Origin: a virus
IMG/VR virus record: IMGVR_UViG_3300050343_000240
Coordinates: 1-58,238 of that record
Direction: 5' to 3' (one strand)
DNA length: 58,238 nt
Every line of letters starts with the position of its first letter. Within the stretch, counting starts at the first letter, position 1. A model generated the notes under the pieces. That model was not told where the DNA came from and searched no databases. It saw only the letters and a program-made list of their open reading frames with translations. Both the position numbers and the translations under genes were made by a program. Shown one piece after another: positions 26,102 to 56,501 of this stretch.

Positions 26102-26106
26102 AATGC

Positions 26107-26621: not shown

Positions 26622-26638
26622 GTGATTAATATATAGAC

Positions 26639-26881: not shown

Positions 26882-26888
26882 AAACCAA

Positions 26889-26904
26889 AAGTCTGAGTAG
26901 ACTT
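26889..26904 (+). other. Small hairpin between genes
   Basis: AAGTCT and AGACTT form a 6-bp stem around GAGT, followed by an A-rich stretch rather than a U-tract. It may attenuate or stabilise the transcript; a strong terminator is unlikely. Confidence 0.4.
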
Positions 26905-26944
26905 AAAACTATAACCAATTTTAATAACCAAAATAAAAACCAAA

Positions 26945-27232: not shown

Positions 27233-27354
27233 AAAATACTTTTAAGCAAATAAACCAAACATTATTGAAAATAACTGGTATGTTATGGGTGCTATTTACA
27301 GCAGCCGTATATATTATAATGATATTATCAATAATAAAATTACTATTCAAATAA
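27229..27354 (+). CDS. Small single-TM membrane protein (GTG start)
   Basis: A 41-residue ORF starting at a GTG that overlaps the preceding stop (GTGA). A hydrophobic helix covers about residues 16-39. Its four-base overlap and membrane segment support expression. Function unknown. Confidence 0.55.
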   Translation: MKNTFKQINQTLLKITGMLWVLFTAAVYIIMILSIIKLLFK

Positions 27355-27364
27355 ATTTAATTAA

Positions 27365-28924
27365 ATGGAATATAATAACCCGAGTGAGATTGTAAAAAAT
27401 CTTGACTTTGGCAGTAATGCTAAGTCTAAGATATTAAATGGTATTGAAAAGCTATCAGAAGCAGTTAGTTCAACGCTAGGTGCATCTGGAAAATGCGTGA
27501 TATACGAAGATGCTATGGGAAAGCCCGTAGTAACCAAAGATGGAGTGACTGTTGCTAATAGTGTAGTCCTTATTGACCCAGTGGAAAATATAGGCGCAAC
27601 CCTCATTAAAGAGGCAGCACAAAAAACAGTTAAAGAAGCGGGAGACGGTACGACAACCTCTACCGTCCTCGCACACTCTATATTAAAAGAATGTATTGCT
27701 GCAGATAATATAACAGTAAGGCAAATAAAGCAAAGTGTTGAAGCAGCAAAAGAAAAAGTGATCAAATACCTTGATGATTCTAAAATTAAGGTAACAAACA
27801 AGATGCTCGAATCAGTTGCATCGATTTCTGTAAACAATGATGCTGAATTAGGTGGTATAATAGCCAAAGCCTATAAAAAAGTAGGTAAAGATGGTATTGT
27901 ACTCATGGAAGAGTCAGATACAGAACAAACATATGTAGATATAATAGATGGTGTAGAATTTGATTCAGGTTTGAAATCACAACACTTAGTTACAGATACA
28001 GAAAAGAATAAAGCTGAACTTGACAACCCTTGTATATTAATAATTGGCTCACCAGTTGCAAATATACGTAAAATACAAAATGTATTAGAGTATGTTATAA
28101 AATCAAACAAAAGTTTGCTGATTGTAGCTAATTTAGAGCAACAACCGTTATCTGCACTTATAATGAATAAAGTAAAAGGTAACATAAAGGTTAATATAGT
28201 TGATCCGCCTGGCTTTGGACCAACAAAGCAAGACACGTTACAAGATTTAGCTGCAATAACAGGTGCAACAGTAATTTCTGAAGAATTAGGCGATGATTTA
28301 GATTTAATTAACCCTAGTTGCTTAGGTGTAGCGCAAAAAACAGTTACAGATCAAAATGGTACTGTAGTTACTGTAGAAACAATGCCCGAAGATGTTAAAG
28401 AGCGCATTGTAACTGTAAAGAAAAAAATTAAGAATGAAAAGAACGCTTTTATTAAAACAAAGCTAGAACAAAGACTAGCAATGTTATCTGGAGCTGTCGG
28501 AATCATTAAAGTAGGTGCTAATAGTAAAGTAGAGCTAAAAGAGAAAAAAGATCGTGTAGAAGATGCGATACATGCTGTAAAAGCGGCTCTAAGAGAAGGT
28601 ATAGTTCCAGGCGCGGGTATTGCACTGCATAATGCAGCAGATGAATTAAAATCTGATAACAAGGAAGAAATACTATATAAAGCCATAAAAGCACCTTATA
28701 AAACAATACTGGATAACGCTGGCATTACTTATGGTCCATTTATGGATAAAGGTAAAGGAGTAAACGTAGTTACTGGTTTAGGATGTGATCTTGTGAAAGC
28801 AGGTATCATAGATCCTGTACTTGTTACTAAAACGGCACTTATAAATGCAGTGTCAGTTGCACTTACTATAATTTCAGCAGATTGTATAATTTCAAATGTT
28901 AGAGTCAATGAAGGCAGTAAATAA
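27365..28924 (+). CDS. groEL: Phage-encoded GroEL-like chaperonin
   Basis: A 519-residue group I chaperonin subunit. ATPase elements are in place: VTKDGVTVA (Asp52 region of E. coli GroEL), GDGTTT at residues 93-98, and the catalytic Asp at D400 (VEDAIHAV, equivalent to D398). The intermediate and apical domains can be followed along the whole length. The usual C-terminal GGM repeats are absent; the chain ends NEGSK. It is followed by an overlapping GroES-like gene. It probably assists folding of phage structural proteins; whether it assembles as one or two rings cannot be told. Confidence 0.95.
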   Translation: MEYNNPSEIVKNLDFGSNAKSKILNGIEKLSEAVSSTLGASGKCVIYEDAMGKPVVTKDGVTVANSVVLIDPVENIGATLIKEAAQKTVKEAGDGTTTSTVLAHSILKECIAADNITVRQIKQSVEAAKEKVIKYLDDSKIKVTNKMLESVASISVNNDAELGGIIAKAYKKVGKDGIVLMEESDTEQTYVDIIDGVEFDSGLKSQHLVTDTEKNKAELDNPCILIIGSPVANIRKIQNVLEYVIKSNKSLLIVANLEQQPLSALIMNKVKGNIKVNIVDPPGFGPTKQDTLQDLAAITGATVISEELGDDLDLINPSCLGVAQKTVTDQNGTVVTVETMPEDVKERIVTVKKKIKNEKNAFIKTKLEQRLAMLSGAVGIIKVGANSKVELKEKKDRVEDAIHAVKAALREGIVPGAGIALHNAADELKSDNKEEILYKAIKAPYKTILDNAGITYGPFMDKGKGVNVVTGLGCDLVKAGIIDPVLVTKTALINAVSVALTIISADCIISNVRVNEGSK

Positions 28925-29162
28925 TTATATAATCATAACTAAGATTAAAGAAGAGCTTAAAACCGATTTTGGTTTTATAATGCAAGACACGAAAGGTGAA
29001 ATCCGGTATTCAAAAGGAAAAGTAGTTAACTGCGGTGAGAAAACCGAGTGCATAAACCCTGATGACGTAATATACTACGATAAACGTGCAGGTCACGATT
29101 TAATTTATGAGGGTAAAAGTTACACAGTTATAAAACAACAAGATGTAGTTATTGTAGAATGA
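28908..29162 (+). CDS. groES: GroES-like co-chaperonin
   Basis: An 84-residue GroES-fold protein from the ATG at 28908; a Met four codons earlier (28896) is also possible. It has the N-terminal strand NNYIIITKI, a candidate mobile loop (KTDFGFIMQDT), then KGKVVNCG, NPDDVIYYDKRAG (the GD-V-x-Y/F pattern) and the final strand near the C terminus. It overlaps the GroEL gene by 17 bases, so the two are produced together. The mobile loop is shorter and more divergent than in bacteria, so it probably matches its own GroEL. Confidence 0.8.
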   Translation: MKAVNNYIIITKIKEELKTDFGFIMQDTKGEIRYSKGKVVNCGEKTECINPDDVIYYDKRAGHDLIYEGKSYTVIKQQDVVIVE

Positions 29163-29599
29163 GAATAGATGCTGCAGACCTACGCGAGATGCAACTTTTC
29201 CGGTATTATAGGTTAACCCGAAAGTGGGCTTGTAAAACATACGGGCTCACTGACGGGGACCTTGAATTATTAATTTATTTAGATTGCGTTGGGCGATTTA
29301 CGCGTAATGATTATAAAAACGGCACTTACTTAATGAGTTGGGATAAACACCGTTGGGAAAAATTGCGTAAAGAAGATTGGATTGTTGTTTGGAGAAAAAG
29401 AAACCATACAACACAAAAGTATCATATATTTCAAACTTCTAACCGATGCAAACGACTAATAACCAGAATATACAATATATTATTAGGCAAAGAAGATATA
29501 CCTTTTAAGAAAACAAGTGTATTCTATAATAACAAGACATACACTGATAAAGTCTTTAACAAGGCTATTGATGATATGCTAAAAGATAACGAACGCTAA
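29159..29599 (+). CDS. Winged-helix-like hypothetical protein
   Basis: A 146-residue basic protein. Residues about 20-75 (KTYGLTDGDLELLIYLDC, then MSWDKHRWEKLRKEDWIVVWRKR) look like a MarR/DUF winged helix: helix, HTH and wing. It overlaps the GroES-like gene by 4 bases. It may regulate transcription or act at the virion/packaging stage. The fold is only a pattern guess. Confidence 0.6.
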   Translation: MRIDAADLREMQLFRYYRLTRKWACKTYGLTDGDLELLIYLDCVGRFTRNDYKNGTYLMSWDKHRWEKLRKEDWIVVWRKRNHTTQKYHIFQTSNRCKRLITRIYNILLGKEDIPFKKTSVFYNNKTYTDKVFNKAIDDMLKDNER

Positions 29600-29610
29600 A
29601 AACTAAGATT

Positions 29611-29709
29611 ATGCCAAAAGGAATAGGAACTTACGGAACAAAAAGAGGTAGACCACCTGGAAAAGGAACAAAAACAAAAACAAAAAATAAGTCTAAAACC
29701 AAAAAGTAA
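29611..29709 (+). CDS. Tiny basic protein with AT-hook-like motif
   Basis: A 32-residue ORF starting MPKGIGTYGTKRGRPPGKG. The KRGRPPG core resembles an AT-hook, followed by alternating Thr/Lys. Its stop overlaps the next start (TAATG). Minor-groove DNA binding is inferred from the motif alone. Confidence 0.65.
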   Translation: MPKGIGTYGTKRGRPPGKGTKTKTKNKSKTKK

Positions 29710-30008
29710 TGGCTACTAAGCTTGATAAATCGAAAATGGCGTGCAATAAGCCACGCCGTTCTCCTAAAAAAGATAAAAAGAAAGTGGTAAAAGCTTGCTC
29801 TGGTGGTACAGAAAAAATTATTCATTTTGGGCATAGCTCATATGGGCATAATTACAGCGCAGCTGCTAGAAAATCTTTTAAAGCAAGACATAAATGTAGT
29901 ACAGCCAAAGATAAGTTAACTGCCAGGTATTGGTCTTGTAAAAATCTTTGGGGAGGAAAAGGTAAATCTACTAAATCAAATCCTAAAGGAGTAAGAGGTA
30001 AATACTAA
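29709..30008 (+). CDS. Conserved basic phage protein
   Basis: A 99-residue Lys-rich protein. The segment FKARHKCSTAKDKLTARYWSCKNLWGG is a pattern I know from small uncharacterised proteins of marine and Bacteroidota phages. Three Cys and two His could form a metal site. TAATG overlaps at both ends show a coupled gene chain. Function unknown; a minor virion or DNA-condensing role is possible. Confidence 0.8.
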   Translation: MATKLDKSKMACNKPRRSPKKDKKKVVKACSGGTEKIIHFGHSSYGHNYSAAARKSFKARHKCSTAKDKLTARYWSCKNLWGGKGKSTKSNPKGVRGKY

Positions 30009-30115
30009 TGAAAAAATTATCACCAAAACAAATGCGCATTGCTAAGATGGCAAAGCCTTATAATAAAATCACAGGAGCTGATTTTAAAATGTTGAAAAAC
30101 AAAAAAAGAAAGTAA
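30008..30115 (+). CDS. Tiny basic conserved phage protein
   Basis: A 35-residue ORF starting MKKLSPKQMRIAKMAKPYN. TAATG overlaps link it to both neighbours. The KITGADFKMLKNKK end is a pattern seen in other phages. Function unknown. Confidence 0.7.
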   Translation: MKKLSPKQMRIAKMAKPYNKITGADFKMLKNKKRK

Positions 30116-30249
30116 TGGCTAAGGATGCATGCTACCATAAGGTAAAAAAAAGATATCGTGTGTTTCCTTCTGCTTATGCAAGTGGTGCTATAGCTAAATG
30201 CCGAAAAGTCGGTGCAAAAAACTGGGGCCGTGGCGGTAAGAAAAAGTAA
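30115..30249 (+). CDS. Tiny conserved phage protein, FPSAYASGA family
   Basis: A 44-residue ORF starting MAKDACYHKVKKRYRVF. The core FPSAYASGAIAKCRKVGAKNWG is strongly conserved across many phages, with two Cys. Its start overlaps the previous stop. No function is established. Confidence 0.8.
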   Translation: MAKDACYHKVKKRYRVFPSAYASGAIAKCRKVGAKNWGRGGKKK

Positions 30250-30505
30250 AAAAGGTGCAAGCCTAAAAAGATGGTTTAAAGAAGAATGGACTGATGTCCG
30301 TACAGGTAAGCCATGCGGTAGAACCAAGGGAGAAAAGCGAGGTGTGCCGTATTGCCGTCCTAAAAAACGTATATCTTCTGCAACCCCTAAAACTGCTTCA
30401 GAAATGTCAGCTTCTGAAAAAAGAAAAAAAATATCAGAAAAGAAAAGATTAGGTCAACCAGCTGGCAAACCTAAAAGAGTTAAATCTTTAAAAAGAAGAA
30501 AATGA
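30230..30505 (+). CDS. DUF5872-like conserved phage protein (GTG start)
   Basis: About 91 residues. The pattern SLKRWFKEEWTDVRTGKPCGR followed by GVPYCRPKKRIS matches DUF5872-type phage proteins. I chose the GTG at 30230 (VAVRKSKKG) over the one at 30212 because family members start about 14 residues before WFKE. It overlaps the preceding gene by 20 bases. Strongly basic; function unknown. Confidence 0.75.
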   Translation: MAVRKSKKGASLKRWFKEEWTDVRTGKPCGRTKGEKRGVPYCRPKKRISSATPKTASEMSASEKRKKISEKKRLGQPAGKPKRVKSLKRRK

Positions 30506-30657
30506 AATCAAAAGGATTGGGCGATTCAATAGAAAAAATCACAACTAAAACTGGTATTAAAACAATGACTGAAAAAATATCAGAAGGTTTAGGTATTCCA
30601 TGTGGTTGTCAAAAAAGAAAAGATAAATTAAATAAACTATTTCCATATAAAAATTAA
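30502..30657 (+). CDS. Tiny conserved phage protein with IPCGC motif
   Basis: A 51-residue ORF starting MKSKGLGDSIEKITTKT. The GLGIPCGCQKRKDKLNKLFP segment recurs in small proteins of marine and Bacteroidota phages. ATGA overlap with the gene upstream. Function unknown. Confidence 0.75.
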   Translation: MKSKGLGDSIEKITTKTGIKTMTEKISEGLGIPCGCQKRKDKLNKLFPYKN

Positions 30658-30662
30658 ATATT

Positions 30663-30941
30663 ATGATTGCAAGTATTATTATAAACTTTGTTTTATTATT
30701 GGCATTAGTGTACATGATATTCGTACACATTGGTTTTTTTAAAGATGAAGATAAAAATTTTATACCTGATTCTTTAGAGGCTAAAATCAAAAATTTAAAA
30801 GAAGATATTTCTGAAATTAAATCAAGAGTTGGTGAAGAAATAGAAGATGTTAAAGATGCTGTTAAAGAAGTAGGTAATCAATTAGATGATATACCCGCAG
30901 CAATGAAAACAAAAAGAAAAGGTAGAAAGAAAAATGCCTAA
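30663..30941 (+). CDS. Single-TM coiled-coil protein next to the holin
   Basis: A 92-residue protein with an N-terminal TM segment (residues about 2-24), a coiled coil and a basic C terminus. It overlaps the holin gene by 8 bases. The topology suits an accessory membrane protein of lysis. Confidence 0.6.
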   Translation: MIASIIINFVLLLALVYMIFVHIGFFKDEDKNFIPDSLEAKIKNLKEDISEIKSRVGEEIEDVKDAVKEVGNQLDDIPAAMKTKRKGRKKNA

Positions 30942-31350
30942 CAAAAAAAAGTTTAAAGAAACTGGCGTAGGCAAATTTTTATTAGAAAAAATACCAGATG
31001 TAGTTGGCGCTATAGCTGGTGATACACCTGTAGGTTCTGTTATACAGGCTATCATTGGAGGCTCTGATATGAGTGAAAATGATAAGGAAATAGCTCTTGA
31101 AAAACTAAAAGCAGAGCGAGCAGAAATAGACGGCACTACCAAAAGATGGGTTGCTGATGCAACATCAGGTTCTTGGCTAGCTGCTAATGTAAGACCATTA
31201 ATTTTAGTATTCTTAACAGTGTCTTATGTTATTGGTTGGTATATGGGATATTCATTAGATGACATAACAGGATTACTTACTATAGTAATTGGAGGATACT
31301 TTGGATCGCGAGGTGTTGAAAAAGTATTTGGTAATAATAAACATAGATAA
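30934..31350 (+). CDS. Holin, 3-TM type
   Basis: A 138-residue protein. The segment after WVADATSGSWLAANVRPLILV contains two to three hydrophobic helices ending GGYFGSRGVEKVF. This pattern is typical of the three-TM holins of gene-transfer-agent and marine phage type. Holins permeabilise the inner membrane and time lysis. It lies far from the M15 peptidase, on the opposite side of the structural genes; a second candidate membrane protein is at 8311-8718. Confidence 0.75.
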   Translation: MPNKKKFKETGVGKFLLEKIPDVVGAIAGDTPVGSVIQAIIGGSDMSENDKEIALEKLKAERAEIDGTTKRWVADATSGSWLAANVRPLILVFLTVSYVIGWYMGYSLDDITGLLTIVIGGYFGSRGVEKVFGNNKHR

Positions 31351-31709
31351 TGGCTAAGATAAGTACTTATGCAAAAGATACCCTAGTACAAGAAACTGAT
31401 AAATGGATTGGAACGGATGGCCCTACTGGGATAACTAAAAACTTTAGTCCTGACGCTTTACTTGATTATTATGTAGATAATGGAAAGATAGGTGTTGGAG
31501 CTATTGAAGTTGGTGATACTGCAAGTAGACCAACGGCACCTCCAGAACTTTTTGAAGGTTTAACAAGATACAATACAGACACAAAAAAAATAGAAATATA
31601 TAATAGTTTTGGCTGGTATAATATGGGACCAGAATATCGAGCAGGTGCAGATTCAATAATATTAACTTCAGATTCAACAACATATAAAATAAGCGAAAGA
31701 ACACACTAA
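31350..31709 (+). CDS. Tail-fibre-associated protein
   Basis: A 119-residue protein starting MAKISTYAKDTLVQETDKWIG. It resembles the N-terminal adaptor segments of phage tail fibres, with a beta-rich fold and the motif RYNTDTKKIEIYNSFGWY typical of fibre proteins. Its TAATG overlap with the holin and its position just before the large fibre suggest it belongs to the fibre complex. Confidence 0.65.
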   Translation: MAKISTYAKDTLVQETDKWIGTDGPTGITKNFSPDALLDYYVDNGKIGVGAIEVGDTASRPTAPPELFEGLTRYNTDTKKIEIYNSFGWYNMGPEYRAGADSIILTSDSTTYKISERTH

Positions 31710-31710
31710 A

Positions 31711-34700
31711 ATGGCAAAACAAGTAATCAATATAGGCGCAATCGCAAATGACGGAACTGGCGATCCCGTAAGAACTGCGTTTGATAAATCTAATGATAAC
31801 TTTACAGAGTTATATGGTAAACCAGATTTATCTTTATCAGCTAATACTTTAACACTAACAAGAGCAGATGGATCGACAGATACTGTTGATTTATCTATTT
31901 ATTTAGATGAAGATTCTAGATCTATATCGAGTGGTACAGTAAATGAATCAGGTATAGTAACATTTATAAGAGATGACGCCTCAACGTTTACACTTGATTT
32001 GTCAGCTTTATTACTTGTAACTAGTGTAAACAATCAAGTTGGAGCAGTAGTTTTAGATGCTGACGATATTAATGATGCATCCACAACAAATAAATTTACC
32101 ACTGCTGAAGATATTTCTAAATTATCAGGTATTGAAGAAAACGCAGACATAACAGATACGACAAATGTAACTGCGTCTGGTGCTTTAATGGATTCTGAAG
32201 TAACAGACCTTGCTGGTATTAAAGCAATAACCATTTCAACATTACAGCCAAAGCCTTCAGAAGGAGCGTTTGCAAACGGCGATAAAACTAAATTAGATGG
32301 TGTTGAAGAAAATGCAGATGTTACTGATACAAATAACGTAACTGCCGCTGGGGCCTTGATGGATTCAGAAGTAGTTAACTTATCGCAAGTAAAAGCATTT
32401 GATTCTTCAGACTATGCAACCGCAGCTCAGGGAACTTTAGCTGATAGTGCTCAACAGCCGCTAGCGGAGGGTGCATTCGTAGATGGTGATAAAACTAAAT
32501 TGGATAGCATAGAAGCGAATGCGGATGCAACAGATGCAGCTAGCGTAACTGCTGCCGGAGCATTAATGGATTCTGAAGTAACTGATTTAACTGGTATTAA
32601 AGGGGTTACAGTTTCTACTTTGCAAGTAAAACCATCAGAAGGTGCTTTTACGGATGGTGATAAAACAAAGCTAAATAGTATAGAATCAGGTGCTGAAGTT
32701 AATCGTACTGATGGAGCAATTAGAGATATAGTTGGAGGAATGTTAGGTGGTACTGAAACAGGAATTTCAGTAACTTACCAAAATGGCACTGGTGATATTG
32801 ATTTTGTGGTTGAGTCACAAACAGACGAAAACTTCACGACTGCGGATCACTCTAAATTGAATGGTATTGAAGTGGGTGCAGAAGTAAACACTGTTGATTC
32901 AGTTAATACTCAAACAGGTGCAGTTGTACTTGATTCAGATGATATTTCTGAAGGAACAACAAATAGATATGATCAAACAGTCAGTTTGGCAGCAGGTACG
33001 AATATAACAGTTACTGGGACATATCCTTCATTTACAATTGAATCGGCAAATACAAATACACAGTTATCTACCGAAGAAGTTCAGGATATTGTTGGCGCTA
33101 TGTTCACAGGTAATACACAAACAGGCATAACAGTAACATATCAAGACGATGATGGAACCATAGATTTATCTACAAGCATTGGCGATATTACTGAAGTACT
33201 TGTTGGCGGAGGTTTAGTGGGAGGAGGTACTACTGGTTCAGTCACTATTACACACGAAGATACCTCAGGACAGGCATCTGTAAATAATTCTGGCAGAACC
33301 TACATTCAAGGCGTAACTCTTGACGATTATGGGCATGTCACAGGTTTAACCTCTGCAACTGAATCGGTTAGCAACACGGATACTAATTATTTCTTAGATG
33401 GTATTACTAAATCCGGTAATGTTTTAACTTTTAGCGTTAGTGGGGCTACAAACCAAACATATACTTTTGGTTCTAATGCTTTTACGTCTACAGCAATTCC
33501 TACAAACAATAGTGACCTTCCAAATGGTGCTGGTTATGCAACAACAGCAGAAGTAAATACAGCAATAAGCAATGTGATTGATACTGCTCCAGCTAATTTA
33601 GATACTCTTAATGAGTTAGCTGCGGCTTTAGGTGATGATGCAAACTTTGCATCTACAGTAACAACAGCTTTAGCTGGTAAACAAGCTGTAGGAACTTACA
33701 ACACAATAATAGGTACTGATACGGACATTAACACTTCTGGTTCTACCATTGTTGATAATATAAATGTTACGGACGGAGTTATTACTTCAATGGGCACCAG
33801 AGTTTTAACATTAGCGGATCTTGGCTATACAGGGGCTACTAACGCAAATAATTATTCTCACCCAACTTTTAACGGTGATGACTTTTCAATTGATACCGGC
33901 GCTTTAACTGGGGCTACTGTTATTAGTGATTTAGACATTAATATAACTACTAATTCTCAAGGTCATGTAACAGATACAAACGGAACTGTAGCAACTAGAA
34001 ATCTTACATTGGCTAATTTAGGATATACGGGAGCGACTAATGCAAACTATATTACTAATAATAATCAGTTAACAAATGGAGCAGGATATACAACAAACAC
34101 CGGAACCATCACAAGTGTATCCACTTCAGCGGGTTTAGATGGGGCTGCAACAAGTGGTGGAGTAACAATTTCTTTAGATTTATCAGAACTTACTGATATG
34201 ACAGCTGCAGTTAGTACAACTGTAGATGAGTTAATTTTATTGGACAACGGAGCAGAACGAAGAAAACGGTTTAGTGAAATATTTGGTTCTAATGCATATA
34301 ATAGTACCACTATACCCACAAATAATAATCAGCTTACAAACGGAGCTAGCTATTTAACAACTTCAGGAAAAGCTGCTGACTCTAACTTACTGGATGGATT
34401 AGACCTTCATACAGGTAGAAATAATGTGGCAAATAGAGTTGTTAGAACAAATGGTAGTGGATATGCAGAGTTTGGTTGGATTAATACAACATCTGGTAAT
34501 ACTACAAACACAATAACAGATATTTATGTAAACACAAATGATGGATATATAAGAAAAGCTACAGGTGCTCATTTTAGATCTCAAGTAACAGATGCATATT
34601 ACACAAACAATGCTGGTGATATTACTAATGTAACAGCTGGTGGTGGTTTGACTGGCGGTGGAACCTCAGGGTCTGTTACAGTAAGTCACAGTAACACTTC

Positions 34701-35912: not shown

Positions 35913-37700
35913 ATGGCATTACAATCAAGTGGACAAATAGATATAAGTGATATTAAAGCTGAGTTAGGCAGCACAAGCGGTTCACTACGCACATTATCAG
36001 CAGCTGCGGGCTTAACATCACCTGATGCTATGAGTGAATTTTATGGTTATTCATCTTTTGTAGAACCAGATGAATATTTGAATATTTCAAACTGGACAGG
36101 AAATGGTGGCACAAAAAGTATTACAGGTAAGATAGGCCAATCAGCGGAATTTAATGGGAGTAGTAGTAGAATAAATTTACCTAATAATCCTATAAACGGA
36201 AAAACAAGTGTTAGTGCAGCTTTTTGGTTAAATTCAGCCAATCCGACCAGAGCAGTTCATCAATATTTACTTAGTTTTGTTAATTCAATTTCGGGGTGGG
36301 AAGGGGTTGGTATAAGACTCACTGGAACTCCTGGTAAAATTGGTATTGTTAGGGCAAAAAGCGGGGCTGTAACAGTTGCGGAAAATAGCAGTTACACTGT
36401 AGTTGCAAATACATGGGTTCACGTAGCGGTAACATGTTCGCAGTCCCAAGCAAAGATTTATATAAATGGTAGTTTAGATTCTACACATTCTGTATCAGGA
36501 TTTACTACTAATAATACAGGCTCGTTTGACATAGGTATGAATCAATACAACGCGTCGACAACTCAAGCTTTTTTTCACGGTGAACTTGATGAAATTTATG
36601 TTTACGGAGATATATTGTCGTCAACAGAAGTTGGGTATATATATAATAATACAACAGCTTCTATACCATCTGACAATTTGTTGGCCTATTATAAATTTAA
36701 TGGTAATGCAGAAGACGAACAAGGTAGCTATGACGGAACACCTACAAACGTAGGTTTTGTAGGTATGAAATTTCAACCTGATTTAGTTTGGATAAAAGGC
36801 CTTGATAATACTTGGGATCATTTAGTATTTGATGTAACTAGGGGCGGAAATAAATATTTAAAAGCAAACGAAACAAGTGCTGAATCAGGCGTAGCAAATT
36901 GGATTAGTTATCCAAGTGGGGGATTTAAGTTAACTAGCGTAGGGGGAGCCGTAAACCAAAACGGAGAAAAATTTGTTAGTTATAATTTTAAGGCGGGAGG
37001 AACTGCTTCCGCTAACAATAATGGGGTAACATCAGGAAGCGTAACTGCGGTGACTTCAACAGTATCTGCTAATGTTGGAGCAGGGTTTTCTATTAATAAA
37101 TTTACTACACCTTCAAGCGGATTTCCATCTTGGGGGCACGGATTATCATCAGCACCCGAACTAATAGCAGTGAAGGCAACAGGTCTAACGCAAAATTGGG
37201 CTGTTTATGCTCCTTCATTATTAGGTCAAAAAGCTGCACAATTCAATACGAGTTCAGCATTTACTGCTTATTCCCCTAATATTATAAGCGTAAATAGTAG
37301 TAAAATTGATTTAGGTCGTTCAGGGTATGGATTAAGTGGTAATTCAGAGTACATCGCCTACTGCTTTCACTCTGTTCCTGGGCTTAGTAAAATAGGAACC
37401 TATGTAGGCAACGGTTCATTAACTGGGCCTACTGTTACAACAGGTTTTAAACCACGTTTTCTTATTTTAAAATCAACTTCTCATACGGGTCATTGGGTCT
37501 TGATGGATGCAGTAAGAGAAGCTGGTCGTAATGACATATTATACGCTTACACACTTTTTAGTATATCTAGCTATGCTTCAATTGATGGTTACCCTGGTAC
37601 CAAATTTATACAACTTAATTCTAATGGTTTTCAACTTAAAACTAATTCTACTTCTTTTAACGGAAATGCAAGAAGCTATATGTATTATGCAGTAGCATAA
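35913..37700 (+). CDS. LamG-domain tail adhesin
   Basis: A 595-residue protein. The N terminus (MALQSSGQIDISDIKAELG and then LRTLSAAAG) is a recurrent phage tail-protein leader. Residues about 70-245 form a LamG/concanavalin-like jellyroll (GQSAEFNGSSSRI, WVHVAVTCS, GELDEIYVYG), often used to bind glycans. The C-terminal half, with FQPDLVWIKG, YNFKAGG and FKPRFLILKS repeats, is a module common in marine phage tail proteins. It is probably a second receptor-binding appendage. Confidence 0.8.
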   Translation: MALQSSGQIDISDIKAELGSTSGSLRTLSAAAGLTSPDAMSEFYGYSSFVEPDEYLNISNWTGNGGTKSITGKIGQSAEFNGSSSRINLPNNPINGKTSVSAAFWLNSANPTRAVHQYLLSFVNSISGWEGVGIRLTGTPGKIGIVRAKSGAVTVAENSSYTVVANTWVHVAVTCSQSQAKIYINGSLDSTHSVSGFTTNNTGSFDIGMNQYNASTTQAFFHGELDEIYVYGDILSSTEVGYIYNNTTASIPSDNLLAYYKFNGNAEDEQGSYDGTPTNVGFVGMKFQPDLVWIKGLDNTWDHLVFDVTRGGNKYLKANETSAESGVANWISYPSGGFKLTSVGGAVNQNGEKFVSYNFKAGGTASANNNGVTSGSVTAVTSTVSANVGAGFSINKFTTPSSGFPSWGHGLSSAPELIAVKATGLTQNWAVYAPSLLGQKAAQFNTSSAFTAYSPNIISVNSSKIDLGRSGYGLSGNSEYIAYCFHSVPGLSKIGTYVGNGSLTGPTVTTGFKPRFLILKSTSHTGHWVLMDAVREAGRNDILYAYTLFSISSYASIDGYPGTKFIQLNSNGFQLKTNSTSFNGNARSYMYYAVA

Positions 37701-49007: not shown

Positions 49008-52000
49008 ATGCCAGAAATTAAAAACAATTTCTTTAAAGGGAAAATGAATAAAGACGCTGATGAGCGTGTTTTACCTCCTGGAGAATATAAAGATGCTTTA
49101 AACATTCAAGTTGGTGTTGCTGAAAACGGTGATGCCGGTAGCTTGCACAATGTATTAAGTAATAATAAAATAAGTAATCTTAATATTTCTGGAGCAAAGT
49201 GTATTGGTAGTGTAGCAGATACACAAGCTGAAAAAATATACTGGTTTATTTATGGTACAACAATTGATGCTATTGCGGAATATGATGAAACAACAGATAC
49301 TGTTTCTCCTGTAATAGTTGATACAACCAAAAATATATTAAAGTTTCCTAATACTCAAATAACTGCTGTAAATGTTATAGAGGGGTATTTAATATGGTCA
49401 GATAATAATTCTGAACCAAAAAATATTGATATAGAATATTTTAAATCTGGTTCTGTTGATTTTGCTACAACAACAACTATAAATGAAGATTATATAAATC
49501 TTACTAGGAGTATAATAGAATCTGATTTAACACTTATAAAAAAGAAACCAGCTTCAGCCCCTACTGTTTCATATAGTATTTACGGGGAAGAAGTTAAATC
49601 TTTTGGAATAAATATTACAGCAACCGTAGATATTACGGGAATAAATATTGGAGACTCCGTCACAATGACAGTTTCTGCTAATCCTAATTTTATTTCAGGA
49701 GAAGAGTTTTTTGTAACCAACACAAATGACATAGGTAGTAGAGGATTTAAGTTTATTTCTATTAGCGGAGGAACTATTACAGCAGAATATGTTTCTGTAT
49801 TCGGGTATCCTTTACAATCTTTTACAGGTACAATAAAAAAAGGAGATATATTATTTAAAGATAAATTTGTAAGATTTGCTTATAGATGGCGTTTTAAAAA
49901 TAACCAAATATCAATTTTTTCTCCATTTACTGAACCAATTTTTGAGCCATATCCTGTTTTTGATCTTAATGATGAAGACGGATATAATACTTCTATGGAA
50001 AATATTATACGCCTTATAGAATTAGACAAAATTGATGTAACACCTACAGATTTGTATACTATTGATATAGTATATAAAGACTCTAGCGAAAATAATTTAT
50101 ATATTTATAAAACATTAAAAAAAGAAGAATTTGAAAATTATTCTACTGGAAATGGAAAAATTAAAATAAATACTGAAAGCTTATATTCTGTTATATCAAA
50201 CAATCAATTATTTAGACAATACGATAATGTTCCTTACAGAGCTAAGGCTTTGGAAATAACTGCAAATAGAGTTTTATTTGCTAACTATAAAGACGGATTA
50301 AATATAGTAACGGATCAAACTGGTAATTATGTAGAGTATAACCCATCGTTTAATATTTCTACCAGTAGGCGGTTAGATCATTTTTCTAAATCTATAAAAA
50401 CAGGAAGAACCTACCAGTTGGGAGTTGTTTTTGAAGATAAATATGGTAGACAAACACCTGTTGTTTCTAATGATTCAGGAGAAAAAAAGATTAATTACAA
50501 TGAAGTTAGATTTTTTTCAGCTACTCCGCCTAGAATTAGTGGTAATGAATTTAAAGTTTCACTATCAGATTTACCTCAAAATACTTTTTTTGACAATAGA
50601 ATAAGTAAATTTAAATATTATATTAAAGAGCAATCTAAAGAGTATTATAATATATTTTTATATAAAGCTTTTGATGATATTGTAAATACAGATTTTTTAT
50701 GGATAGCTATACCTAGTTATGAAATAAACAAAGTGCAAAAAGAAGATATTTTAATTTTAAAGAAAAAAGCAAATACAAATGCTCCTTTGTCTGACGCTTC
50801 ATTAAAATACAAAGTTCAAGAAATTTCAAATGATTTCCCTACAAATCAAATAACATCAACTGAAACTTTTAATGGTTACTTTTTTATAAAAATAAAAAAA
50901 GACTCAAAAGGAATAGCGACTGTTGCTAATTTAAGTGCAGATAATACTTTACCTGGATGGTACGGGGCGGCAGTTTTTGAAACAATTCCATCAGACAATA
51001 TACTTGATTTATATTATGAAACAGAAGATTCATATAATATATCTGAATATAATCAAGAAAAAACATTAAGATGGTTTAATTGTTTTGATTTTGGTAATGG
51101 TGTTGAAAGCGACAGAATAAGAGATGATTTTAATGAAGTAACTATAGATAATCAAGTAAGGGTTTCTACAACTGTTGAAGATGGGTATAAACAAAAGCAT
51201 AATAAATATGGTTTAATATTTTCTAGTGGATTATTTAATTCAAGAAATGGCATTAATAATATAAACCAGTTTAACACAGGAGAAGCTATTACAAAAGATT
51301 TAAATCCAGAACACGGGAGCGTACAAAAGCTGCATAGTAGAAACAACGATATAATTGCTTTATGTGAAGATAAAATTTTAAGAATATTAGCTAATAAAGA
51401 TGCTCTTTTCAATGCTGATGGCAATGTTAACCTAACTTCTACAAATAACGTTTTAGGACAATCAGTGCCTTATGCTGGTGAATATGGAATATCTCAAAAT
51501 CCTGAATCTTTTGCGGATTACGGTTATCAGGTATATTTTACAGATAAAGCTAGAAATGCTGTACTTAGGCTTTCTATGGATGGCTTAAGTGTTATATCTA
51601 ATTATGGTATGGCAGACTTTTTTAGAGATAAGTTTAATTTAGCTACGGCCGAAGAATCTATTTCTTTTAAAGAAGGTATTGATGGTTGGACGTCAAGATT
51701 AAGTTTTGTGCCAGAATCAGGCGTTTCTTTAAATGGGTCTTATTACACCATGAAAGATGGGGAGCTATATAAACAGCATGTAGCTTCTAGCAACTATAAT
51801 AATTTTTATAGCACACAATACAATTCTACTGTTGATTTTATATATAATCAAGAACCTTCTGTAATTAAAAACTTTAAAACATTAAGTTACGAAGGCTCTG
51901 AAAATTGGTATGCTAATACTATAGAGACAGATCAACAATCTGGCAAAGTGGAAAAAATATTATTAAGTGATTTACAATCTCAATATCCTTCTTTAGATAA

Positions 52001-52157
52001 TAATACTTTAATAGAAATACAAAAAAATAATTCTTTTATAAATAAAGAAGGTAAGTGGTTTGCAAATATTAAAGGTGTTGCAAATACAGATAATAATTTA
52101 GATACTAAAGAATTTTCTATACAAGGGTTAGGAAATATAACTAGTTTTACAACATAG
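49008..52157 (+). CDS. Large tail tube/stabilisation protein (T7 gp12-like position)
   Basis: A 1049-residue protein. The N-terminal pattern NFFKGKMNKDADERVLPPGEY and then DALNIQVG is found in tail tubular/stabilisation proteins of podoviruses related to the crAss-like and marine Bacteroidota groups. The body is Asn/Thr/Tyr-rich beta structure. It would form the tail nozzle or tube. Family recall from the N terminus; structure not tested. Confidence 0.75.
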   Translation: MPEIKNNFFKGKMNKDADERVLPPGEYKDALNIQVGVAENGDAGSLHNVLSNNKISNLNISGAKCIGSVADTQAEKIYWFIYGTTIDAIAEYDETTDTVSPVIVDTTKNILKFPNTQITAVNVIEGYLIWSDNNSEPKNIDIEYFKSGSVDFATTTTINEDYINLTRSIIESDLTLIKKKPASAPTVSYSIYGEEVKSFGINITATVDITGINIGDSVTMTVSANPNFISGEEFFVTNTNDIGSRGFKFISISGGTITAEYVSVFGYPLQSFTGTIKKGDILFKDKFVRFAYRWRFKNNQISIFSPFTEPIFEPYPVFDLNDEDGYNTSMENIIRLIELDKIDVTPTDLYTIDIVYKDSSENNLYIYKTLKKEEFENYSTGNGKIKINTESLYSVISNNQLFRQYDNVPYRAKALEITANRVLFANYKDGLNIVTDQTGNYVEYNPSFNISTSRRLDHFSKSIKTGRTYQLGVVFEDKYGRQTPVVSNDSGEKKINYNEVRFFSATPPRISGNEFKVSLSDLPQNTFFDNRISKFKYYIKEQSKEYYNIFLYKAFDDIVNTDFLWIAIPSYEINKVQKEDILILKKKANTNAPLSDASLKYKVQEISNDFPTNQITSTETFNGYFFIKIKKDSKGIATVANLSADNTLPGWYGAAVFETIPSDNILDLYYETEDSYNISEYNQEKTLRWFNCFDFGNGVESDRIRDDFNEVTIDNQVRVSTTVEDGYKQKHNKYGLIFSSGLFNSRNGINNINQFNTGEAITKDLNPEHGSVQKLHSRNNDIIALCEDKILRILANKDALFNADGNVNLTSTNNVLGQSVPYAGEYGISQNPESFADYGYQVYFTDKARNAVLRLSMDGLSVISNYGMADFFRDKFNLATAEESISFKEGIDGWTSRLSFVPESGVSLNGSYYTMKDGELYKQHVASSNYNNFYSTQYNSTVDFIYNQEPSVIKNFKTLSYEGSENWYANTIETDQQSGKVEKILLSDLQSQYPSLDNNTLIEIQKNNSFINKEGKWFANIKGVANTDNNLDTKEFSIQGLGNITSFTT

Positions 52158-52163
52158 TACATA

Positions 52164-53390
52164 ATGAGTATAAACGCAGATAACATAATAGGTACATACG
52201 ATATATATAGTAAACAATATATATTAACTTTTACAGAAAAGCCTACTTTAATTGAATCTACAGATTGTAGTTTTCAAATATCTATTATACCTGAATTTGA
52301 ATGTGCTTATTCAGGTTTAAGTATACCTGATGGTATTGTTGGTGATACTGTTACAGCAACAGTAACAGAGGGCACTATAGGTACTATAACACCTAGTGCT
52401 TATCAACAAGGCTTAACAGATTATTCTGTTCAAATTACAGCTCCAGGTGGTTATACTAATGCTGGTACTATTATATTATGTCCTGCTTCAGCAACCGGAA
52501 CGCCTACATTTGGCTGTAGCGATGCGGCGTTAAGCATTAATAATGGTAATGTAGGAGCTACTGTTACTGGAACAGTATCTTTAGGTACAATTGTAAGTTT
52601 TACACCATCAACATATGTTTCCGGATCAACCCAATACTTTGCAAAAATTACAGTTCCTTCTGGGTATTCTAATACGGGAGACACTGAATTTGGTTGTTCT
52701 GGTTCTGCTACAGGTATAAACCCACCACCACCACCGACTCCACCGACTCCGCCGGCTCCTACTCCCCCGCCAACTCCAGCTCCATGTACCTCTAGGATAA
52801 CTTCTAGTTCTATACCAGCACAAACATTAACTCAAGGCCAAACAGTAACTATTAATCTAAATAGTTATTTTACACAACTTGATGGATTATCTTTAAGTTA
52901 TTCTGTTAATGCAGCACAAGCAATAAACTTTTACGGATTATTATCAAGCGCAACAATAAGCGGAAGTACATTAACTATGGTGGCAAACAATAACAATGTC
53001 TGCTCTCCTACAAGTTCAGTTCAAATAACAGCTGATGATGGTGTATCAGGAAACTGTATAGGAGTAGGAAATATTGGAATTACAGTTACTGGATGTTCAG
53101 GGCCAACTCCACCAACTCCACCAACTCCACCACCCCCAACCCCGCCTACGCCCACGCCGCCTACGCCAACACCACCGGCTCCAACACCTTCCTTGTATTA
53201 TACATTCAATGCATGTGACCCGAGCTTAGCGGCGGTAGATGTTCAATTAGCATCCCAGCCAGCAAATAACGCAAGATATGTAAGATCTTCAGATATGACG
53301 TTTTGGACTTATGATAATAACGCAGGTACTTCTACAGCTACTAACCCTACTGCGAGCCTTAACTTTACATCAAACACAGGATGCCCTTAA
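52164..53390 (+). CDS. Proline-rich repeat appendage protein
   Basis: A 408-residue protein with beta-rich repeat modules separated by two polyproline tracts. The tracts lie at about residues 187-208 and 312-342 and consist of PPT/PT/PA repeats in an AT-rich genome. The modules, e.g. INNGNVGATVTGTVS followed by PSGYSNTGD, occur again in the protein at 55152, as does the Cys-containing C-terminal module beginning LYYTFNACD and ending TGCP. It has no recognised enzyme domain and resembles a surface fibre or adhesin. The downstream hydroxylase and glycosyltransferase make its Pro residues possible modification sites. Its end overlaps the hydroxylase gene by 10 bases. Confidence 0.75.
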   Translation: MSINADNIIGTYDIYSKQYILTFTEKPTLIESTDCSFQISIIPEFECAYSGLSIPDGIVGDTVTATVTEGTIGTITPSAYQQGLTDYSVQITAPGGYTNAGTIILCPASATGTPTFGCSDAALSINNGNVGATVTGTVSLGTIVSFTPSTYVSGSTQYFAKITVPSGYSNTGDTEFGCSGSATGINPPPPPTPPTPPAPTPPPTPAPCTSRITSSSIPAQTLTQGQTVTINLNSYFTQLDGLSLSYSVNAAQAINFYGLLSSATISGSTLTMVANNNNVCSPTSSVQITADDGVSGNCIGVGNIGITVTGCSGPTPPTPPTPPPPTPPTPTPPTPTPPAPTPSLYYTFNACDPSLAAVDVQLASQPANNARYVRSSDMTFWTYDNNAGTSTATNPTASLNFTSNTGCP

Positions 53391-54538
53391 TGAATGAAAT
53401 TAAAAATTTTTTAAATAAAAAAGAATGTGATTATATTATAAGTTTAATTAATAATAACAACTTTAAATCACAAGTAATTGGATCAAAAGGTAAATCTATT
53501 TATGAAAACAGTAGAACTTCATCTACTTCTAATTTATTAATAACAGATGAGGTTGTTATTAGTGTGCATAAAAAAATATCAGATTATTTAAATATACCTA
53601 TAGAAAACGGGGAATCTTTGCAAGGCCAAATGTATAAACCGGGTGAATATTTTAAACCGCATCAAGATGCTTTTTCTGGCAATTCTTATGAAGCCCACGC
53701 AGGAACTGCTGGAAACCGCACGCACACTTTAATGATTTATTTAAATGATGATTTTGAAGGTGGTGAAACAAGATTTACAAATATTAATAAGTCTGTATTA
53801 CCTGAAGTAGGTAAAGCTGTATTTTGGAAAAATATAGACGAAAATAAAAATATAATACCAGAGTCAATGCATGAAGGTTGCGAGGTAACCTCAGGTAAAA
53901 AGTATATAATAACTTCCTGGTGGAGAGAAAATTCTTGGCTTACAAATACTACTGAAACTAATAATTTTGTTGATTCTGAGCTGCCTAAACTCACAGAGAA
54001 AGGTTTTAAAGTAATACCATTACCTGAAAACGAATGGGGTATAATACAAGATGCTTATAAATTAATTAAAGACAAAAATGTAGAAGAAATTTTTGATAAT
54101 AAAAAAGATTTTATTAAAAATGGAAATACTGAATTATTAAGTTTTGATCACGTACCTAATATTAAAAAATTTATTCATAATAAGTTGTTAAAAATTCACG
54201 AAGAATTTGCTGGTAAAAAACTTATACCGTCTTTTATATATGGAATTAGATCTTATCAAAATGGTGCAACATTAGTCCCTCACGTAGATCGCATTGAAAC
54301 TCATCATATATCTTCTATAATTATTATAGATAAAAATTTAAACAGTGAAAATGATTGGCCTTTAGATATTAAAGACCATAATGGAAAGTGGCATAAAGTT
54401 TACGCAAAACCAGGTGATATGATACTTTACGAAGGAGCGGTGTGTGAACATGGTCGTAAAGAAAGCTTTAAAGGTAATTATTTTAGAAATTTATTTGTTC
54501 ATTATAAGTTTTATGACTTTACACTTCCTAGCGCCTAA
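53381..54538 (+). CDS. Two-domain 2-oxoglutarate/Fe(II) hydroxylase, prolyl-4-hydroxylase-like
   Basis: A 385-residue protein with two consecutive 2OG/Fe(II) oxygenase domains. The N-terminal domain carries the iron-binding HxD (H94, D96), the distal His H164, and K174 ten residues after it, as in prolyl-4-hydroxylases where Lys binds 2-oxoglutarate. The C-terminal domain has H301-x-D303 and H357 with Arg about 12 residues later. Both domains retain their iron ligands, so both may be active. The gene overlaps the preceding Pro-rich protein gene by 10 bases and the following glycosyltransferase gene by 26 bases, indicating a functional unit. Substrate (proline in the neighbour) is inferred. 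Confidence 0.85.
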   Translation: MPLMNEIKNFLNKKECDYIISLINNNNFKSQVIGSKGKSIYENSRTSSTSNLLITDEVVISVHKKISDYLNIPIENGESLQGQMYKPGEYFKPHQDAFSGNSYEAHAGTAGNRTHTLMIYLNDDFEGGETRFTNINKSVLPEVGKAVFWKNIDENKNIIPESMHEGCEVTSGKKYIITSWWRENSWLTNTTETNNFVDSELPKLTEKGFKVIPLPENEWGIIQDAYKLIKDKNVEEIFDNKKDFIKNGNTELLSFDHVPNIKKFIHNKLLKIHEEFAGKKLIPSFIYGIRSYQNGATLVPHVDRIETHHISSIIIIDKNLNSENDWPLDIKDHNGKWHKVYAKPGDMILYEGAVCEHGRKESFKGNYFRNLFVHYKFYDFTLPSA

Positions 54539-55133
54539 AAACAAAAATATTTGGCCAGATTTGTGGCATAAATGCTTACTTTCTTGGCAAAAACATTATA
54601 GCGATATAAAAGTTTGGGATGATTATGAAATAGATAATTTTATAAAAAAATATGATACTAACTTTTTCAAAATATTAAACCAATCTCATAAAATATTTAG
54701 GTTAGATTATGTTAGGGGATTAATTCTTGAAAAAATAGGGGGAGCATATATAGATATTGACATAGAATTAATATCTCCATTCATGCATCAAATAGATAAT
54801 AATGAAATATATATAATTGAAGCTTACGCAGATGACGAAGTGTTTCAAAATAGTTTAATGATTTCATCTCAATCAAGTTTTTGGACTGAGTTTTTATATT
54901 ACTGCAGAGAGTCTATATTTAAAAATTTAGAAAGCGTAACAAAATACCCTAATATAAAAGAAAAAATACCAGGTACAATAGTGAGAAAAACTGTGGGCCC
55001 AATAGCTTTATCTAATTTTATAATAAATAATAATAAAGCAGTAAAAAAATTACCTAATAATTTATTTAATAGTTCAAAAAATATTTGTTTTACAAAGCAC
55101 CATAATACTGGTATATGGGGTTTTATAGATTAA
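54513..55133 (+). CDS. DXD glycosyltransferase (Gly_transf_sug / GT32-like)
   Basis: About 206 residues from the ATG at 54513; an upstream Met at 54444 would add a hydrophobic leader. It has the family order of WPDLWHKCLLSWQKHYSD, then RLDYVRGLILEKIGG, and the metal/nucleotide-sugar motif D81-I82-D83 in AYIDIDIE. The WGF end is also family-like. It would transfer a sugar from a nucleotide-sugar donor. It overlaps the hydroxylase gene by 26 bases. A target of hydroxylated proline in the neighbouring fibre is inferred. Confidence 0.85.
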   Translation: MTLHFLAPKNKNIWPDLWHKCLLSWQKHYSDIKVWDDYEIDNFIKKYDTNFFKILNQSHKIFRLDYVRGLILEKIGGAYIDIDIELISPFMHQIDNNEIYIIEAYADDEVFQNSLMISSQSSFWTEFLYYCRESIFKNLESVTKYPNIKEKIPGTIVRKTVGPIALSNFIINNNKAVKKLPNNLFNSSKNICFTKHHNTGIWGFID

Positions 55134-55151
55134 AAGTTAAAAAAAAATAAA

Positions 55152-56147
55152 ATGGCAGTATATAAAATAATTGGAACTTTTGGAAATTCTTTTTCAAATT
55201 CAGATCAAATTAATCTTTTTGTTAATTCTGGTACCATAGTTCCATCTACTACAACCAAGTTTCAACTTGAGCAAGGTATTTTTGTTACTGTTAATAGTGG
55301 TGTTACAATTACTGCATATACTTCAAATGGTACTTGCGCTAATATTTCTGATGCTGTAGACGTGCCTAATACTCCCGTACCAGAACCTACGGAAGAATTT
55401 GATTGTAATACTACAAATCTAAATTTAACTATTAATAACGGAACTGAAGGTGATAATGTTACAGGAACTGCTTATCTACCTGACGGTTCTTTAGGTACAA
55501 TAACAGGTTTTTCTCCTTCTTTTTATAGTACTAGCGTAACTACTTATAGAGCATTTATAACAATACCAAGTGGTTACTCTAACACAGGAGATGGTGAACA
55601 AGTTATTGGCTGTGATGGTACAGCAACGGTTACCCCGATAACATCTTCTCACTTATATTATACATATGAGGCTTGTGATGGCAGCAGCGATGTAGATGTT
55701 TTATTAGAATCTGCTCCATTTTCATCAATAGAAAGAAGAATAGATTACAGTACTTCTAAATATTATACTTATAGCGGAGACGCAGGTACTAGTGCTAATT
55801 CAAATCCTATAAAATCTTTAGATCTAATAAGTGGAACAGGTTGTCCACCTTTACCTACATATTATTATATAGCAGTAAGAGAATGTACTGATTATAATTC
55901 AAACGGAGCTCTTGAGGATAGGGTTGTAAGGTCTCTTACAGACATCACAGGATGGAGTCATGTTTTAATACCAAGGTATTCTGGAGACACAGGAGCTGTA
56001 TATGAAAAATATGGTAGTTTAAATCAATCTTCTTTAGCAACAGCTTATGAAGACGGAACTTTTGATTTGCCTTCAGTAGACTTAGATAATACTGCTTCGT
56101 CCAACGGAATTACAGTAGCATCTTTAGAAAAAACAACGTGCCCCTAA
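55152..56147 (+). CDS. Second appendage protein, paralogue of the Pro-rich one
   Basis: A 331-residue protein sharing with the product at 52164 the NNGTxGDNVTGTA beta module, the PSGYSNTGD segment and the LYYTYEACD to SGTGCP C-terminal module. It lacks the polyproline tracts except a short NTPVPEPTEE stretch. A Cys-rich, beta-rich adhesin-like protein. It starts 18 bases after the glycosyltransferase stop. Confidence 0.7.
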   Translation: MAVYKIIGTFGNSFSNSDQINLFVNSGTIVPSTTTKFQLEQGIFVTVNSGVTITAYTSNGTCANISDAVDVPNTPVPEPTEEFDCNTTNLNLTINNGTEGDNVTGTAYLPDGSLGTITGFSPSFYSTSVTTYRAFITIPSGYSNTGDGEQVIGCDGTATVTPITSSHLYYTYEACDGSSDVDVLLESAPFSSIERRIDYSTSKYYTYSGDAGTSANSNPIKSLDLISGTGCPPLPTYYYIAVRECTDYNSNGALEDRVVRSLTDITGWSHVLIPRYSGDTGAVYEKYGSLNQSSLATAYEDGTFDLPSVDLDNTASSNGITVASLEKTTCP

Positions 56148-56183
56148 AATTAACATAAATAATTAAGACGTAATAATAAATAC

Positions 56184-56501
56184 ATGAGTCAGATCACGTT
56201 AAATATAAACTTTGATAAAAATACTTCATTACAAGTTGGAGATATTATTTATTATGAAACTGCAGGTTCTATTAAAACAATAGGACCTGTAACTACTATT
56301 AATACTTCATCTATAGTTTGTGAAGAAACTGGTGACACCAGTAGTTTAGCAAACAACTCATTTATTTTTTTTGGGAAAGACAACGAAATAAATACATCGG
56401 GTATAATAGGATACTATGCCGAAGTACAAATGAAAAACGAATCAACTTCTGAAGCTGAAATATTTGCAGTTAATTCAGAAATATTTTTAAGTAGTAATTA
56501 A
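56184..56501 (+). CDS. Small beta-rich hypothetical protein
   Basis: A 105-residue beta-rich protein, Thr/Ser/Asn-rich, in the appendage cluster just before the internal virion genes. The content is consistent with a virion component; no domain recognised. Confidence 0.6.
   Translation: MSQITLNINFDKNTSLQVGDIIYYETAGSIKTIGPVTTINTSSIVCEETGDTSSLANNSFIFFGKDNEINTSGIIGYYAEVQMKNESTSEAEIFAVNSEIFLSSN

Follow-up and report, generated by a model that had tools for sequence, protein, structure and literature searches.

A predicted phage-encoded hydroxyproline O-glycosylation cassette beside a crAss-like tail muzzle gene

We analysed a viral DNA of 58,238 nucleotides (the window, which is the whole stretch studied, from IMG/VR record IMGVR_UViG_3300050343_000240) and we consider it probable that one of its gene cassettes encodes a system for O-glycosylation of hydroxyproline (Hyp) in the tail appendage of the phage itself, the chemistry being predicted. 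The genes follow each other in the order muzzle, proline-rich appendage protein, two-domain oxygenase, GT32-type glycosyltransferase and tract-free paralogue of the appendage protein (Table 1). This confirms the reading frames first noticed, with two start codons corrected below. In related phages, the prolyl-4-hydroxylase (P4H) gene lies almost always by a gene with a proline tract, usually followed by sugar-attaching enzymes, which makes self-modification of tail appendages probable.

Results

Table 1. Position of the cassette features in the window
Feature	Position	Strand	Length	Characteristics
crAss-like tail muzzle protein	49008..52157	+	1049 aa	crAss_MUZ_C domain; PF25729, E 2.3e-11; phrog_14478, E 1.3e-113
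Proline-rich appendage (fibre-like) protein	52164..53390	+	408 aa	Ig-like repeats, Cys module, two PPT tracts
PPT tract 1	52722..52784	+		PPPPPTPPTPPAPTPPPTPAP; appendage protein residues 187-207
PPT tract 2	53103..53192	+		PTPPTPPTPPPPTPPTPTPPTPTPPAPTPS; appendage protein residues 314-343
Two-domain 2OG/Fe(II) oxygenase, P4H type	53390..54538	+	382 aa	PF13640, E 1.6e-19
N-terminal P4H catalytic domain (predicted)	53390..53926	+		H94xD96...H164...K174 (numbering from 53381)
C-terminal second 2OG-type domain	53984..54511	+		H301xD303...H357; phrog_2954, E 2.8e-24; weak 2OG-FeII_Oxy_4
GT32-type DXD glycosyltransferase (P0003)	54513..55133	+	206 aa	PF04488, E 4.3e-6
Appendage-protein paralogue	55152..56147	+	331 aa	Without proline tract
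c1-family protein	56184..56501	+	105 aa	phrog_18548; downstream end of cassette

Judged by family matches of its muzzle (PF25729) and of its terminase, portal and other structural genes, the window phage is crAss-like (Crassvirales); its PHROG matches to phage families include phrog_6681, 6547 and 13704. The muzzle has relatives in Cellulophaga and Flavobacterium phages and is about 38% identical to the proline-tailed muzzle homologues of related phages. At the downstream end, the c1 cluster has proline tracts in 52 of its 67 members, and crAss_MUZ_C was present in the members tested (L048 and L079). A search of NCBIfam gave no names.

The appendage protein, for which we obtained no family match in Pfam or PHROG, is the presumed substrate of the cassette enzymes. 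It had first been described as an appendage protein, or fibre, with two PT/PPT tracts; both tracts were recovered, and the fibre is better called an appendage that adjoins, or in relatives is fused to, the crAss-like tail muzzle. Such a tract occurs in only one of the 69 window ORFs, the one touching the oxygenase gene, and in 11 of 1036 phage genes taken as background (about 1%); on these counts a chance origin was rejected. When the composition of the appendage protein was shuffled, a tract arose in 45 of 2000 trials. The homologue in L001, the closest sister of the window phage, keeps both tracts next to different domains. The protein encoded after the glycosyltransferase is a true paralogue, as the preliminary description had it, matching two modules of the appendage protein (53% and 44% identity, E 1e-15), and is devoid of the tract.

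For the oxygenase, ATG 53390 is the most likely start rather than the ORF-tool start 53381, homologues beginning at the equivalent of 53390. The tight gene overlaps reported earlier are real: the oxygenase ATG overlaps the appendage stop by one base (TAATG), and the oxygenase and glycosyltransferase genes share 26 nt. We observed that the HxD...H iron ligands of both domains, already seen intact in the window, are invariant in 81/81 sequences, as is K174, ten residues after the distal His of the N-terminal domain. This lysine aligns with that of the B. anthracis and algal P4H, at the position of the basic 2OG anchor (Lys, collagen/algal type); R369, the candidate basic anchor of the C-terminal domain, is kept in only 73 of the 81. 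Profile matches in the PDB were 3ITQ/5IAX (about 1e-36), 2JIG, 7ZSC and 5C5T. The AlphaFold model that had been proposed (pLDDT 88.9) gave a P4H fold for the N-terminal domain, and its best Foldseek match in the PDB was 3GZE (E 1e-15), an algal P4H with bound (Ser-Pro)5. By profile and predicted fold, the N-terminal domain is thus a prolyl-4-hydroxylase, its catalysis being predicted. The C-terminal domain is beta-strand-rich in the model, and the "ferrochelatase" label of its phrog_2954 match is probably a misannotation. The double oxygenase was not found in bacterial genomes.

The preliminary description had proposed a search for co-occurrence in other phages. Among IMG/VR loci with at least 300 bp upstream of the oxygenase gene, a proline-tract gene was present at position -1 or -2 in 72 of 73, and after clustering at 90% identity in 35 of 36 clusters. 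Hydroxylases beside tract-free fibres, which would have spoken against the proposal, are thus not what relatives carry: a proline-rich substrate is encoded with the P4H in the window and in its relatives. The same core is found in tape-measure (long-tailed) phages with different proline-tract tail proteins. Proline makes up 48% of tract residues and the spacers that separate the prolines differ (T, V, S, A, Q), so that proline is the constant of the tracts. In one locus, L070, a P4H and an HPAT-like gene were present and no tract was found. For the muzzle set, a 2x2 table gave a Fisher value of 4e-7, resting on few independent events, and a phylogeny-corrected test on the muzzle tree, which holds too few of them, was not significant. 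The reverse rule, that a proline tract implies a P4H, was rejected, an oxygenase match being present in 1 of 80 PTPT loci.

P0003 starts at ATG 54513 and not at GTG 54444, most homologues beginning at this Met. It combines a Gly_transf_sug domain (PF04488, 27.8 bits for a cut-off of 23), a DXD motif and a GT-A fold, as expected for a GT32-type enzyme; the D-I-D motif noticed initially corresponds to D81-x-D83, both Asp being invariant in 14 sequences. Its AlphaFold model (pLDDT 90.8) matched Och1 best in Foldseek (9N3S, E 1.8e-7). We found 26 homologues, at most 66% identical, adjoining the same oxygenase; P0003 and P0004 had no match in isolated phages or in a single-sequence IMG/VR scan. The window glycosyltransferase belongs to GT32 only, and to neither of two Hyp-associated families, GT60 and GT95/HPAT; GT32 is not known to us as a family that transfers sugar to Hyp.

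At the same place, relatives encode enzymes that belong to, or resemble, both Hyp-associated families. Within five genes downstream of the oxygenase, and inside the tail gene run, a glycosyltransferase is encoded in 63 of 66 loci; an HPAT-family gene (PF23452) lies beside the P4H in 28 of the 66 and a GT60 gene (PF11397) near it in 16. The HPAT-family matches are distant (20-31 bits) and exceed the Pfam cut-off in 5 of 7 proteins scanned; this family had no PDB match by sequence and was not found in isolated phages. Genes for O-FucT, carbamoyltransferase, NDP-sugar epimerase and aminotransferase are also found near the P4H. Along the P4H tree we counted at least 13 switches of glycosyltransferase class, with the tract retained. 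GT95 HPATs arabinosylate Hyp (PMC8012813), and the GT60 enzyme Gnt1 glycosylates the Hyp of Skp1 after PhyA (PMC6939170; PMC8724618).

Discussion

We propose that the oxygenase, whose gene overlaps that of its substrate and is expressed straight after it, would 4-hydroxylate prolines of the PPT tracts, which would link small domains of the protein beside the tail muzzle, using host 2-oxoglutarate, O2 and Fe(II); this step is strongly suggested. Then a cytosolic, nucleotide-sugar-dependent glycosyltransferase (GT32-type in the window, HPAT-like, GT60 or O-FucT elsewhere) would put a sugar on Hyp or extend one, a step for which the case is firmer for the family than for the window. More speculatively, the tail tip may thereby gain a stalk of glycosylated polyproline II, stiff and extended in the manner of an extensin. 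The earlier proposal that the phage hydroxylates and glycosylates its own fibre is partly supported, by the tract linkage and by the glycosyltransferases of relatives that belong to or resemble Hyp-acting families; glycosylation remains the less certain half, because the window enzyme is GT32-type and L001 lacks a recognisable glycosyltransferase.

An unlikely alternative is that Thr and Ser of the tracts are glycosylated in mucin fashion, independently of hydroxylation, while the P4H works alongside on these tracts. Between tract prolines, T is the most frequent residue, and two relatives, L213 and L220, combine PT tracts with a GT60-like gene but lack the P4H, so that this glycosyltransferase may use Thr. 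Moreover, the polypeptide GlcNAcT of T. cruzi is a GT60 enzyme, and GT95 has a relative in GT96, a family of Ser-galactosyltransferases (PMC6939170, PMC8012813). However, the P4H also accompanies Ser/Thr-poor tracts, as at L027/L038 with (PV)n, L055 with (PA)n and L075 with (PQ)n, loci that carry glycosyltransferases too.

Still less likely, the P4H would only stiffen polyproline linkers by hydroxylation and the glycosyltransferases would act elsewhere, for example on host surface glycans. This would fit the variable glycosyltransferase class and the sister phage L001/L006 as well as L057, where the tract protein and P4H come without a recognised glycosyltransferase, but not the finding that in 63/66 loci these enzymes are encoded among the tail genes, nor the presence of Hyp-associated families among them.

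That the P4H modifies a host protein such as EF-Tu, lying by the appendage gene for operon convenience, is very unlikely: its close relatives include the B. anthracis P4H, for which the title of PDB entry 5V7Y speaks of EF-Tu modification, but its adjacency to tract genes is near-absolute across different phage types and its top structural match is the algal enzyme with bound (Ser-Pro)5. A general auxiliary metabolic role (2-oxoglutarate consumption or altered host metabolism), which has been suggested for the 2OG oxygenases of cyanophages (PMC9602691), recalls the abundance of such enzymes in marine phages, including P-RSM4 with several and no alternating proline tracts, but is most improbable since it leaves the tract and glycosyltransferase linkage of the two-domain family unexplained.

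We lean slightly towards extending the hydroxyproline reading to a widespread phage self-modification, in which P4H and interchangeable Hyp glycosyltransferases (HPAT-like, GT60, GT32, O-FucT) would build extensin-like glycosylated polyproline tail stalks; this would be the first case of glycosylated Hyp among bacteria and their viruses, and might represent a source, independent or ancestral, of the pathways seen in plants and protists. As the glycosyltransferase is an exchangeable module, the glycan coat could vary among phages. If true, Hyp glycosylation extends beyond eukaryotes, phage tails bear variable glycans with possible effects on adsorption, on resistance to proteases or on recognition, and a small group of genes becomes available for making Hyp glycoproteins in bacteria. 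The question becomes directly testable with this locus, which has a specific candidate substrate beside the P4H and encodes a further step downstream.

Hyp glycosylation chemistry is best known from plant cell walls. We know of no description of prolyl hydroxylation and glycosylation of tail proteins in bacterial viruses, and none of such a phage system was found in the open-access literature; the initial description knew of no established three-part example in a phage. Mycobacteriophages also encode glycosyltransferases that act on virion proteins, with no prolyl hydroxylation step known to us. In cyanophage S-SCSM1, a relative of the oxygenase C-terminal domain overlaps an O-FucT homologous to that of the cassettes (E 5e-70) and two virion proteins have (PX)n tracts; in contrast, its genes are scattered, it has 24 oxygenases and the tracts are not adjacent. 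Chlorella virus PBCV-1, a eukaryotic virus unlike the window phage, encodes a P4H (vCPH, 5C5T) homologous to that of the window, and we know of no adjacent substrate and glycosyltransferase cassette there. One amino-acid analysis cited for PBCV-1 virions gave no hydroxyproline (PMC7019647, ref 162), a result that, as far as this single citation goes, counts against the phage Hyp reading, a viral P4H being present. The protist Skp1 pathway (PhyA P4H and Gnt1 GT60) shares a cytosolic P4H with a GT60-type enzyme, as in the 16 loci above, but in Skp1 a single Pro is modified, in the service of O2 sensing, whereas the presumed phage target is whole tracts of a virion protein. With the plant and algal extensin pathway (P4H and HPAT/GT95), the likeness lies in the P4H fold, in alternating or contiguous proline tracts and in the HPAT-family gene that 28/66 phage loci have next to the P4H; the phage version would differ in being cytosolic and phage-encoded, with a tail protein as substrate and, in the window, a GT32-type enzyme.

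Layout of the cassette

IMG/VR lists the window as a virus record; its terminase, portal and further structural genes fall in phage families by family matches. A domain search detected crAss_MUZ_C on its muzzle protein and, since isolates with related muzzles infect Flavobacteriia, e.g. Cellulophaga and Flavobacterium, its host is likely a member of the Bacteroidota. The gene layout of the preliminary description stood but two starts were revised, those of the oxygenase (TAATG coupling) and the glycosyltransferase. The window also encodes a GroEL-type chaperonin (phrog_5725, E 1.3e-127). The muzzle is whole in the window and in relative L001; in L046, L028, L048 and L079, crAss_MUZ_C sits on the gene after the cassette rather than on the muzzle body, and thus the hydroxylase and glycosyltransferase genes lie between the halves of a split muzzle.

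Coordinates of the cassette genes and of other loci observed
Source	Feature	Position	Strand
Window	Muzzle	49008-52157	+
Window	Proline-rich appendage protein	52164-53390	+
Window	Two-domain oxygenase	53390-54538	+
Window	Oxygenase C-domain (PHROG_2954)	53984-54511	+
Window	GT32-type glycosyltransferase	54513-55133	+
Window	Tract-free appendage paralogue	55152-56147	+
Window	Region with whole muzzle	49008-56501	
Window	GroEL-type chaperonin	27365-28924	
L213	PT-tract muzzle phage locus	9784-11690	
L220	PT-tract muzzle phage locus	10197-12115	
P-RSM4	Split oxygenase domains	36340-37460	
S-SCSM1 (MK867354)	(PX)n tract virion proteins (L298, L299)	23462-31273; 170258-173017	
S-T4 (MH412654)	Pair of observed loci	9316-10476; 30200-32365	-; -

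The oxygenase is associated with proline-rich tracts

The oxygenase alignment, scanned against IMG/VR, retrieved 240 relatives, from which the best 80 were kept; the sample therefore covers the part of the family nearest to the query alignment rather than its more distant branches. A simple ORF rule defined the genes, and a single threshold (a 16-aa window with at least 50% Pro) defined tract status; as locus counts are not independent, cluster counts and trees are also given. Among these best 80 of 240, a tract lies in gene -1 in 69 and in gene -1 or -2 in 72 of the 73 loci with at least 300 bp upstream, window included (L070, with no tract at either position, is the sole exception), and a glycosyltransferase lies at most five genes downstream in 63 of the 66 loci whose downstream sequence reaches 2.5 kb or more. 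Oxygenase and tract agree in 35/36 clusters at 90% identity. The background tract frequency is 1/92 for other genes of the same loci and 11/1036 for genes of other phage loci. The non-Pro tract residues differ among loci (T, V, S, A, G, Q).

In most loci, a muzzle homologue extended at its C-terminus by Pro-rich sequence, or a protein encoded right after it, carries the tract. In L027 and L075 the tract protein is of a different kind and follows a tape-measure gene; the oxygenase-tract pair has therefore moved between phage morphotypes. In a set of loci chosen by muzzle rather than oxygenase, all 9 with the oxygenase had tracts, and no tract was present in 35 of the 39 without it; on the muzzle tree the association comes down to about four changes, which is not enough for a corrected test. 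Across viral contigs in general, PTPT tracts are rarely near this oxygenase; tracts are therefore not sufficient.

Two isolated cyanophages were also observed. S-SCSM1 encodes 24 2OG oxygenases and an O-FucT, and has (PX)n tracts in two annotated virion proteins, one tract being ~110 aa of P[R/Q/N]. S-T4 encodes a Pro-tract protein, annotated as a putative muramidase, as well as a distant two-domain oxygenase.

The oxygenase resembles prolyl 4-hydroxylases

A profile of 26 oxygenase sequences, run against solved structures, gave prolyl 4-hydroxylases (P4H) as top matches (B. anthracis, about 1e-36; Chlamydomonas, 2e-25), with human C-P4H-II and the PBCV-1 enzyme also among the first. The AlphaFold model (pLDDT 88.9) best matches an algal P4H with bound (Ser-Pro)5, an alternating X-Pro peptide; its pTM is low (0.53), leaving the arrangement of the two domains unsure. 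The iron ligands, previously described as intact, and the Lys are invariant across 81 sequences. All 81 also keep the C-domain HxD...H, and a possible 2OG anchor, R369, is present in only 73. PHROGs and cyanophage records call the C-domain family 'ferrochelatase'; it resembles a 2OG oxygenase domain. P-RSM4 encodes the N-type and C-type domains in two overlapping genes.

Glycosyltransferases of several classes

Among the 66 loci, HPAT-like (28), GT32 (21), GT60 (16) and O-FucT (12) enzymes were found, and at least 13 class changes are needed on the oxygenase tree. A 276-aa family, suspected from motif order to be HPAT-related, matched Pfam PF23452 in 4 of 12 members; of 7 proteins scanned in a second round, 5 exceeded the 23.9-bit cut-off (best 31.2), and the HPAT model had no match in control genomes (0/14). 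On sequence feel and position alone, c9 and c12, two unnamed families, resemble glycosyltransferases; they occur only alongside HPAT-like genes and leave the 63/66 count unaffected. The GT60 model PF11397 matched relatives with E down to 1.6e-36, and L066 has GT60 and GT32 fused in one protein. The window GT32, with a predicted GT-A fold and Och1 as nearest structure, has 26 homologues beside the same oxygenase (identity up to 66%). No recognised glycosyltransferase was found at the loci of L001/L006 (a sister phage) and L057.

We also observed that GT32 loci (L010, L016, L030, L048, window) tend to PP-rich (PPT) tracts, whereas those of GT60 loci (L058, L066, L073) strictly alternate; PP per Pro ranges from 0.36 to 0.50 in the former, one GT32 exception apart, and from 0 to 0.03 in the latter, uncorrected for phylogeny. 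Acceptor preference of GT32 versus GT60 is a possible explanation.

Threonine or hydroxyproline as acceptor

Gnt1, a GT60 enzyme, acts specifically on hydroxylated Skp1 (PMC6939170), and GT95 HPATs use Hyp as acceptor (PMC8012813); both families have relatives using Thr or Ser. L213 and L220 have PT tracts and a GT60-like gene with no oxygenase, which favours Thr as acceptor at least for their enzyme; these phages also have an FkbM-like methyltransferase. The (PV)n, (PA)n and (PQ)n tracts adjoining the P4H favour Pro/Hyp.

Comparison with known systems

No report of a combined P4H-tract-glycosyltransferase system in phages was found in the open-access literature searched. The chemical steps are individually known from eukaryotes, and PBCV-1 provides a known viral P4H. 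On that basis we file the cassette as a variant of hydroxyproline O-glycosylation, as a candidate rather than a proven member.
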